From positions 1 through 36,797 of the forward strand of contig WFZZ01000006.1 in assembly GCA_015489315.1 (NCBI GenBank): DNA of 36,797 bases, given 5' to 3'. Both the position numbers and the translations under genes were made by a program. This document shows, piece after piece, positions 12,477-15,004 of this stretch. The notes beneath the pieces are model-generated. The model was not told the origin of the DNA. It did no database searches and saw nothing but the letters and a program-made list of their open reading frames with translations. Each line of letters begins with the position of its first letter. The stretch's first letter is position 1. The stretch is from Deltaproteobacteria bacterium (lineage in GTDB: Bacteria; Desulfobacterota; Dissulfuribacteria; Dissulfuribacterales; QOAL01).

Positions 12477-14108
12477 TTATCCTAGTATTTCTTTTATATC
12501 CTCATCGGGTGTTTTTATTGGCATGATGTTATAGTTTTGAACAAGGACATTCAAGACATTTGGACTTACAAAGGCCGGAAGGCTTGGTCCAAGCCTCATG
12601 TTTTTGATTCCAAGGGCAAAAAGGGTTAGAAGTATTGCAACTGCCTTTTGCTCATACCAGGAAAGCACCATTGAAAGTGGAAGATCATTCACATCGCAGT
12701 TAAAGACCTTTGAAAGGGCGACTGCAATCTGGATAGCAGAATAGGCGTCATTGCACTGGCCGATATCAAGAAGCCTTGGAATCCCCTCAATATCTCCAAG
12801 TTTTTTGTCAAAAAAGCGGAACTTTCCACAGGCAAGGGTAAGTACAATGCAGTCTTTGGGAACCTTTTCAACAAATTCTGTATAGTAATTTCTTCCTGGC
12901 TTTGCCCCGTCACAACCTGCAACTAGGAAAAAGTGCCTTATCTTTCCGGCCTTTACTGCCTCAATTACCTTGTCTGCAACGGACATAACCGTATTTCTTG
13001 CAAAGCCCACCATTACAGTGCCCTTGTCAGTATCTTCCTTGAAGCCTTCGCACTCAAGGGCCTTTTCAATGACAGGGGTAAAGTCCTTGTCGGCAATGTG
13101 CTTTACTCCTGGCCAGCCAACAAGACCAGTAGTGAATATCCTGTCAAAATAGGACTCCTTTGGCTTCTGGATACAGTTTGTAGTCATGACTATTGGCCCT
13201 GGAAATTCAGCAAATTCTTTTTGTTGATTTTGCCATGCAGTTCCATAATGGCCGTAAAAATGAGGGTATTTTTTAAGTTCAGGATAGCCATGACATGGAA
13301 GCATCTCGCCATGGGTATAGACATAAATACCCTTACCCTCGGTCTGCTTCAAAATAAGCTCAAGGTCCTTAAGATCATGTCCTGAGACAAGTATGGCCTT
13401 TCCCTTCTTGGCCCCTAGAGGAACTTCAGTTGGGACAGGATGGCCATAATTTTTGGTATTTGCATTATCAAGTAGCTCCATTGCCTTTAGATTAAGCTCT
13501 CCCACCTTAAGTGCCAGGCCAACCCATTCTTCAAGGGACATATCCTTATTGAGGGTTGCTGCAAAGACTTCGTGGATATTTTTATAGTGCTCTTCATCCT
13601 CTTCACCGAGAATCTGGGCATGATCCGTATAGGCACAGACCCCCTTTAATCCATAAGTTATTGTTTCTCTAAGAGATCTTTTGTCTTCATCAAGATCTCC
13701 GTTTGAAAGCACTCCATGCATCTCGCCTTGGCGCACCATCTCTTCCTTGTTGTTTCCAAGCTCAAAGGTTGCTGGGCCTTCTGGAAAGTCCGCATTTCCG
13801 CCCTTTGTCTTTATCTTTTCTTTAAGATCGTCTCTCATGGCGACACAGCGTCTTAAAAGCTCCACAAAACGATCCGGGTCAAAGTCCACATTGGTAAGTG
13901 TTGAAAATACAGCCTCACAGGTAAATACATTTACGTCTCTAGGTACATCTACACCACTTTTTCTGGCCTCAACTGCAACCTGTGAAAGGCCTTTTATGGC
14001 ATAAATAAGTAGGTCCTGTAATGCAGCTACATCGGGTTGTTTTCCACAAACTCCAACAGTTGTACAACCTTTACCCTTTGCTGTCTGTTCACATTGAAAA
14101 CAAAACAT
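12477..14108 (-). CDS. hcp: Hybrid cluster protein (hydroxylamine / NO reductase), class I
   Basis: A 543-aa Fe-S enzyme reducing hydroxylamine and NO. The N-terminal cysteine set is C3-x2-C6-x8-C15-x5-C21, the spacing of class I Hcp from strict anaerobes, which bind [4Fe-4S] rather than the [2Fe-2S] of class II. The C-terminal domain holds ligands for the hybrid Fe-S-O cluster in segments such as VAGCDGAKPG, LACGKFRF and IGQCNDAYSA. The ribosome site AGAGGTGA overlaps the end of the upstream siroheme-protein gene (3 bp between genes). The pair shares a promoter with a CRP/FNR-type palindrome, fitting nitrosative-stress control. Confidence 0.97.
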   Translation of the reverse strand: MFCFQCEQTAKGKGCTTVGVCGKQPDVAALQDLLIYAIKGLSQVAVEARKSGVDVPRDVNVFTCEAVFSTLTNVDFDPDRFVELLRRCVAMRDDLKEKIKTKGGNADFPEGPATFELGNNKEEMVRQGEMHGVLSNGDLDEDKRSLRETITYGLKGVCAYTDHAQILGEEDEEHYKNIHEVFAATLNKDMSLEEWVGLALKVGELNLKAMELLDNANTKNYGHPVPTEVPLGAKKGKAILVSGHDLKDLELILKQTEGKGIYVYTHGEMLPCHGYPELKKYPHFYGHYGTAWQNQQKEFAEFPGPIVMTTNCIQKPKESYFDRIFTTGLVGWPGVKHIADKDFTPVIEKALECEGFKEDTDKGTVMVGFARNTVMSVADKVIEAVKAGKIRHFFLVAGCDGAKPGRNYYTEFVEKVPKDCIVLTLACGKFRFFDKKLGDIEGIPRLLDIGQCNDAYSAIQIAVALSKVFNCDVNDLPLSMVLSWYEQKAVAILLTLFALGIKNMRLGPSLPAFVSPNVLNVLVQNYNIMPIKTPDEDIKEILG

Positions 14109-14111
14109 GGC

Positions 14112-14939
14112 TCACCTCTTACTATTTGGATTTCCCTTAAAAGGGATACTTAAACCTTCTTCCAAGGCCCTTAAACCCTCATGATCCAAAAGGGCTCCGA
14201 GCCTTTCTCCTCTACTTGCCCTTTTCTTATAAAATGAAAGAACCTTTTCTACTGCCTTGATGCATTCTGTTGTTGAAAAGATATGGTCAAGCTCAAGGCC
14301 AAGCTGGGGGTGACGACCTAGTTTTCCTCCAACAAGGATTCTAAAACCCTCTTTTCCTCTTGTAAGAGCGCTATTTTTACATGCCTTTATACAACTTCCA
14401 CAATAAAGACATTTTTTTTCATTTATTCGTGCAACCTTTTTTTCATTTAAGGTGATTGCATTCTCTTTGCATACCTTGATACATGCCTGGCATCCATCGC
14501 ACATTTCAGGGTCAAGTTTTGGCCTGACTGCACCTATGAGACCTATATCCACTATCTGGGGCCTTGAACAGCTATTTGGACAAAAGGATATGGAGACCCT
14601 AAATTCATTGTGCATCTTTAATGGCCCTTTGATTCTTTCCTTTAAAAACTCCTTTAGATCCTGGGCCATAAGGAGATTTTCAAGTCTATCCGGAATATCT
14701 GTTTTCCAAAGGAATCTGTTTTTGCATCCGTCAGCCCCAAGACAGGTGTCAAGACTAAAGCCCTTGATCTCATCTTCTTGGTCCTTCATAAACCTTTCTT
14801 TTAAGGTGTTGATATGCTCAACCCTTATTTCAGATATCCCGTTTTCACGTGCATAGGCCTCAACCTTTTTTTTCACCATAGGCCTTATGAAAAACGGGAC
14901 CCTTTTTATCTTTGATACTGCCTCAGGACTCCACTTCAT
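14112..14939 (-). CDS. Small siroheme/[4Fe-4S] sulfite- or nitrite-reductase-like protein with two ferredoxin clusters
   Basis: A 275-aa protein. Residues about 1-45 (WSPEAVSKIKRVPFFIR...) resemble the PCP_red-type N-terminal domain. The siroheme/[4Fe-4S] signature C-x5-C (C66, C72) plus C-x3-C (C120, C124 in CPNSC) is followed by two C-x2-C-x2-C-x3-C ferredoxin motifs at 147-157 and 177-187. This layout recalls the small DsrAB-related proteins (Dsr-LP group), not full DsrA/B. The substrate is unproven: sulfite, nitrite or another N/S oxide. It precedes hcp in the same operon, which suggests either electron delivery to Hcp or handling of a related nitrogen oxide. Ribosome site GAGGAG 4-5 nt before the ATG. 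Confidence 0.85.
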   Translation of the reverse strand: MKWSPEAVSKIKRVPFFIRPMVKKKVEAYARENGISEIRVEHINTLKERFMKDQEDEIKGFSLDTCLGADGCKNRFLWKTDIPDRLENLLMAQDLKEFLKERIKGPLKMHNEFRVSISFCPNSCSRPQIVDIGLIGAVRPKLDPEMCDGCQACIKVCKENAITLNEKKVARINEKKCLYCGSCIKACKNSALTRGKEGFRILVGGKLGRHPQLGLELDHIFSTTECIKAVEKVLSFYKKRASRGERLGALLDHEGLRALEEGLSIPFKGNPNSKR

Positions 14940-14955
14940 TTTTTCTCCTCAAATC

Positions 14956-15004
14956 TATTTTATTTATATATGAGACAATTTTGATAATAATTGACTTATG
15001 TCAA
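14956..15004 (-). promoter_or_regulatory. Promoter of the siroheme protein-hcp operon with a CRP/FNR-type (HcpR-like) operator
   Basis: A perfect palindrome TTGAC-N4-GTCAA lies at 14991-15004. On the minus strand a TATAAA -10 candidate is at 14968-14963, giving a start near 14956. The palindrome centre is then at -41.5, the standard class II activator position for CRP/FNR-family proteins. I recall HcpR sites in deltaproteobacteria being of this TTGAC-N4-GTCAA type and controlling hcp. No clear -35 is present, as expected for an activated promoter. Confidence 0.75.

Follow-up and report, generated by a model that had tools for sequence, protein, structure and literature searches.

A siroheme-type protein encoded with class I Hcp in what looks like a conserved HcpR1-type nitrosative-stress operon

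The sir-hcp locus

The window considered here is the whole stretch of DNA that was analysed (36,797 nucleotides; 36.8 kb), and the genes of interest lie on its minus strand. By their ORF coordinates in the window, sir, which encodes a siroheme-type protein, and hcp, which encodes the hybrid cluster protein Hcp, run in that order on the same strand, 3 bp apart; along the operon strand, the operator is followed by 22 bp, the TATAAA element, the GAGGAG ribosome-binding site and the ATG of sir (Table 1). The original observation that sir leads hcp in a single operon holds. Taken together, the arrangement looks like a conserved HcpR1-type nitrosative-stress operon, in which the regulator and Hcp are ordinary and the siroheme protein is unusual.

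Table 1. Features of the sir-hcp operon, with positions in the window
Feature	Position	Strand	Basis or description
HcpR1-type operator TTGACATAAGTCAA, centre -41.5	14991..15004	-	Sequence; kept in relatives
-10 element TATAAA, predicted +1 = 14956	14963..14968	-	Sequence; site-centred alignment of 57 relatives
GAGGAG ribosome-binding site of sir	14945..14950	-	Sequence
sir	14112..14939	-	275-aa siroheme-type / 2x[4Fe-4S] protein
PCP_red domain of Sir, residues 3-47, in place of NIR_SIR_ferr half domain	14799..14933	-	PF08369, E 9.6e-16
First siroheme-[4Fe-4S] motif, C66-x5-C72	14724..14744	-	Invariant in 27 and 81 sequences
Rebuilt pocket K108-M-H110-N-E112-F-R114 and second siroheme motif C120-x3-C124	14568..14618	-	Conservation; alignment to Fsr
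2x[4Fe-4S] ferredoxin insert, C147-C157 and C177-C187	14367..14519	-	Fer4 matches; eight cysteines invariant
hcp	12477..14108	-	Class I hybrid cluster protein; hydroxylamine reductase NF003658, 851 bits (cut-off 367); PF03063, 590 bits

Hcp carries the N-terminal motif C3-x2-C6-x8-C15-x5-C21, which places it in class I, as are 61 of the 62 Hcp proteins at sir-linked loci, the remaining one having an unclear start. As a separate observation, there are two distinct class I Hcp lineages (~65-98% and ~49% identity to the Hcp of the window), and each occurs together with sir and a site of HcpR type (L101, L105, L108, L114, L125, L161 and others).

An operator conserved in sequence and position

Positions 14991-15004 read TTGACTTATGTCAA on the plus strand and TTGACATAAGTCAA on the operon strand, that is, two perfect five-base arms around a non-palindromic spacer, so that the TTGAC-N4-GTCAA palindrome originally proposed is exact in both arms. 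Taking 14963 as -7 puts the operator centre (14997.5) 41.5 bp upstream of the +1 at 14956, which is where a class II CRP/FNR activator sits. These coordinates agree with the distance first given from TATAAA, and the -10 element is recovered at the same spacing in relatives. The core is also a perfect match, upstream of an hcp operon, to the published delta-proteobacterial HcpR motif, wyTTGACnnnnGTCAArw (PMC1274295).

Within the window, the pattern TTGACnnnnGTCAA has one exact match, at the operator; dinucleotide shuffles of the window have a mean of 0.04 exact sites, with one such site in 4 of 100 shuffles. The whole 2.4 Mb genome holds 6 exact sites, 3 of them inside genes, and a reading of all six as regulatory was dropped, the intragenic ones being treated as chance occurrences. 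From such counts alone, the argument against chance is modest, and it is conservation in relatives that is decisive.

A scan of a genome collection for Sir gave 296 relatives. The 80 that were retained come almost entirely from metagenome-assembled genomes of Thermodesulfobacteriota (Deltaproteobacteria), together with one titled Nitrospiraceae. An exact site lies within 260 bp of sir in 40 of the 75 loci with enough upstream DNA, and hcp is preceded by an exact site in 22 of 44; control palindromes (reversed, shuffled, HcpR2-type and CRP-type) gave no matches, and the FNR type gave one, before sir. When 57 sites of the form TTGAYnnnnRTCAA were superimposed with their centres as the only fixed point, a -10 box emerged (T-12 in 35, A-11 in 45, T-10 in 35 and T-7 in 38 of the 57), so that the -41.5 geometry is conserved and goes beyond the reading of one sequence.

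The placement of sites follows the distance between the two genes. In 38 of the 80 loci, hcp follows sir on the same strand at a distance of no more than 400 bp. Allowing up to one mismatch, the site precedes sir in 13 loci where hcp lies within 100 bp; where the two genes are 100-400 bp apart, 20 of 21 loci show a separate site before hcp. The site is also kept before sir in 31 loci that lack hcp within 400 bp; sir thus counts as an independent member of the regulon, and dependence of sir on hcp as a general rule was rejected. Across 99 genomes, hcp occurs in 35 of 37 with sir and in 32 of 62 without it (Fisher p 5e-6, phylogeny not corrected for).

The regulator

In 13 of the 80 loci, a divergent CRP/FNR gene stands beside sir, and its product has the recognition helix GT[IV]PETLSR. 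Ser/Pro180 and Glu181 in this helix have been linked to TTGAC-type sites, TTGACnnnnGTCAA, in delta-proteobacterial HcpR (PMC1274295). The best PDB match of the HcpR1 proteins of relatives is DNR, in agreement with the tree of Rodionov et al. (PMC1274295). HcpR1 with the helix GTIPETLSR is encoded in most close relatives and genomes of the same family, and it co-occurs with hcp across genomes (p 7e-5). The description of the site as HcpR-like is accordingly well founded: the published motif is matched, site, spacing and target genes are kept in relatives, and nearly all close relatives have an HcpR1-type regulator.

The original prediction had named the lack of an HcpR homologue in the genome as a result that would refute it. 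A PF13545 search of the assembly recovered three full CRP/FNR proteins, one on contig C66 and two on C88, none of them with the P180 helix. In a 96%-identical relative, HcpR1, at L200:9203-9907, is flanked by argB and corA-like genes, so named by their sequence; in the present assembly, the matching DNA stops within an hslU-like gene where C132 ends, and C8 begins within the corA-like gene. HcpR1 is probably missing because its syntenic place falls in the gap between these two contigs. The objection, then, is not borne out, even if the genome could formally still lack the gene. Judging from the relatives, HcpR1 is the probable binder of the operator.

Other sites in the genome

Two further loci carry sites of this type. 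On contig C16 (L083:3521-5657), a gene for a 247-aa ferredoxin, called FrdX-like from its context and domains, is followed by one for a 434-aa octaheme HAO-like cytochrome (eight CxxCH motifs; PF13447, E 4e-27), and a perfect TTGACTTAAGTCAA lies just upstream, near the divergent starts of a Gate-domain permease gene and the FrdX-like 4Fe-4S gene. On C252 (L086:5538-5989), a class III cytochrome c (cytochrome c3) of 122 aa has a perfect TTGACAAAAGTCAA upstream and probably belongs to the regulon as its third member. NrfA was not found in this genome, and the HAO-like cytochrome of C16 may therefore be its periplasmic nitrite/hydroxylamine enzyme. FrdX-like genes occur near sir in 22 of the 80 loci, and sir, frdX and hao come together in one (L113).

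Contig C88 (L089:2580-3985) carries tandem CRP/FNR regulator genes, encoding the helices GTCKEVVSR and GTRREVISR, immediately upstream of genes for large multiheme cytochromes.

Sir: conserved ligands and a rebuilt pocket

Domain search gives Sir the architecture PCP_red (PF08369), NIR_SIR (PF01077) and two 4Fe-4S motifs, with PCP_red missing from a few more distant relatives. Its twelve Fe-S/siroheme cysteines, four of the siroheme cluster and eight of the ferredoxin insert, are invariant in 81 sequences. The protein type originally proposed, siroheme with two [4Fe-4S] clusters, is thus recovered in its NIR_SIR domain and in both sets of cysteines, and these conserved ligands suggest that siroheme is bound. 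By sequence and fold, the closest structures are F420-dependent sulfite reductase (Fsr) and DsrAB (pLDDT of the Sir model, 86.5). The PF03460 half domain, where we take the first sulfite-binding arginine of Fsr (R355) to be located, was not found in Sir and is present in the Dsr-like relatives L210, L211 and L219. A search of open-licence papers that combined the protochlorophyllide-reductase domain with sulfite reductase and Hcp brought up no account of the Sir family.

Sulfite in Fsr is bound by R355, R423, K460 and K462 (PMC10229431), and Group I and III Dsr-like proteins keep three or four of the sulfite-binding residues (PMC3448663). In the sequence alignment, the R423 position is E/D64 in Sir (81 of 81 sequences; position 64 is beside a small gap), K460 becomes E112 (79/81) and K462 becomes R114 (78/81); next to these replacements, H110 is invariant (81/81). 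The DsrA of the same genome keeps K-F-K at the E112-F-R114 position. Sir shares with Group III Dsr-like proteins and AsrC the siroheme-[4Fe-4S] cysteine motif and two additional [4Fe-4S] clusters, and lacks their Arg/Lys sulfite set; against the AsrC model TIGR02912, it scores 75.8 bits (curated cut-off 324.1). Nor does it have the PF03460 plus PF01077 architecture of the NirA/NirB type, PF03460 being absent. Canonical sulfite reductase and NirA were both rejected as identities for Sir on these domain and residue tests. With the half domain lost and the sulfite-binding set replaced, a role as sulfite reductase is improbable for Sir.

The acidic replacements around the siroheme point to a putative catalyst whose substrate is small and either uncharged or cationic, such as NO or hydroxylamine, more than to one for an oxyanion. 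In known siroheme reductases, most of the replaced positions hold sulfite or nitrite oxyanions; their loss weakens the case for a nitrite reductase of the usual kind and would make NO or hydroxylamine the more natural substrate. In this fold, a partner protomer supplies pocket residues (PMC13381448), and a Sir dimer could therefore compensate for those that have been replaced.

A working model and its alternatives

In the explanation that we favour, the appearance of NO, or of nitrite yielding NO, would lead HcpR1, a DNR-like member of the CRP/FNR family, to bind at -41.5 and turn on sir-hcp transcription as a class II activator. The products would be two cytoplasmic metalloenzymes: class I Hcp, converting NO to N2O, and Sir, a remodelled relative of group III Dsr-like proteins and the C-terminal half of Fsr that would have kept the siroheme-[4Fe-4S] centre and two-cluster ferredoxin wire and lost the sulfite Arg/Lys set. 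Sir would act on a small nitrogen species other than sulfite, with NO or hydroxylamine as first candidates and nitrite as second, probably yielding ammonia. The original interpretation is partly supported: its regulatory half well, whereas its enzymatic half, a path from nitrite or NO by way of hydroxylamine to ammonia or else electron feed to Hcp, is a candidate reading. We consider the regulon part of this explanation highly probable; the enzymatic role suggested for Sir by its residues is an evenly balanced proposition; and the full reading, an HcpR1 nitrosative-stress operon with Hcp and with Sir as a nitrogen-species enzyme, is one we hold with moderate confidence. A more specific proposal, drawn from the same residues, is offered tentatively: Sir may represent a new siroheme enzyme class, a cytoplasmic NO/hydroxylamine reductase with an acid/histidine pocket (E64, H110, E112, R114) under a PCP_red roof, converting NO-derived nitrogen to ammonia, either in parallel with Hcp or on what Hcp supplies, in sulfate-reducing bacteria.

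Recent work favours Hcp as an NO reductase and states that class I Hcp has no known electron donor (PMC10210160), and in C. difficile, HcpR activates frdX-hcp under NO, with each gene product protective (PMC12915319). These findings support an NO-defence setting for sir-hcp, and they leave electron feed from Sir to Hcp as a fair rival. Under that rival, Sir would be the reductase of class I Hcp through its two [4Fe-4S] clusters, with the siroheme secondary and serving, for example, in NO capture; the 3-bp spacing, the two-cluster insert and the class I assignment of every classable sir-linked Hcp, the very class whose donor is wanting, all fit. However, the many loci with an HcpR-type site before sir and hcp nowhere within 400 bp argue that Sir is not simply an Hcp subunit, just over half of the genomes without sir carry hcp all the same, the FrdX-like ferredoxin is an equally good candidate donor, and a mere electron wire would not need four invariant siroheme-cluster cysteines. 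We regard it as rather unlikely.

Two further alternatives bear on substrate and on regulator. Sir could be a sulfite reductase induced as NO disturbs sulfite reduction or as sulfite accumulates, given that its fold and closest structures are those of Fsr and DsrAB and that the host carries a DsrA gene; but the half domain with the first sulfite-binding arginine is absent, the three remaining positions hold E/D, E and R, and both the partner gene and the regulator are of the nitrosative type, which makes this very unlikely. As for the operator, sites of its type are also common to other FNR-family regulators, which counts against the assignment to HcpR1, and the genome does carry two CRP/FNR genes on C88, one of which encodes a K180-E181-R185 protein that might bind in its place. 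Such a binder would be compatible with any reading of Sir; it is nevertheless quite unlikely, since relatives keep the pairing of site and genes where a P180-E181 HcpR1 gene adjoins sir, and since HcpR1 and hcp co-occur across genomes.

Relation to known systems and significance

The operon agrees with the HcpR1 regulon of delta-proteobacteria (PMC545781, PMC1274295) in motif, regulator class (P/S180, E181), the target hcp and co-members of ferredoxin and cytochrome type. HcpR control of hcp is already known, as is that of a Desulfovibrio sulfite/nitrite-reductase-like gene: Rodionov (2004) listed an operon of a putative sulfite/nitrite reductase and polyferredoxin (206515-206516) with an HcpR site (PMC545781). 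That operon differs in not including hcp and in having a CRP-type site, and it is likened to sir here by description, with no family kinship implied. What is new is the family of Sir, with its remodelled pocket, and the fact that it is paired with class I Hcp.

Among siroheme proteins, the best sequence and fold matches are Group III Dsr-like proteins, AsrC and the C-terminal half of Fsr, which have the siroheme-[4Fe-4S] motif and two more [4Fe-4S] clusters as Sir does, whereas in Sir PCP_red replaces PF03460 and the sulfite Arg/Lys set is missing. DEACI_1836 of Acididesulfobacillus acetoxydans, a candidate nitrite reductase up-regulated with Hcp during nitrate reduction (PMC10949509), is likewise a small cytoplasmic siroheme-type protein, but it has PF03460 and a ferredoxin encoded alongside, while Sir, without PF03460, has its own 2x[4Fe-4S] insert. 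The low-spin alSir of D. vulgaris (group I Dsr-like) is also a small single-chain siroheme protein; that group is without the ferredoxin insert (PMC3448663), and Sir has both the insert and PCP_red. As in the reverse-HURM pathway (Hao plus Hcp) of Nautilia profundicola (PMC2628731), this genome encodes an octaheme HAO-like cytochrome and Hcp, each close to a site of the kind described above, with a siroheme protein and an FrdX-like ferredoxin besides; any pathway of that type would be putative here.

The rebuilt pocket advises caution in annotating members of the Sir family as sulfite reductases. In Thermodesulfobacteriota metagenomes, finding NIR_SIR, PCP_red and 2xFer4 together with an HcpR site can serve to mark nitrosative-stress capacity. 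For the sulfate reducers themselves, Sir is a concrete candidate for the donor of class I Hcp or for the fate of hydroxylamine or NO.
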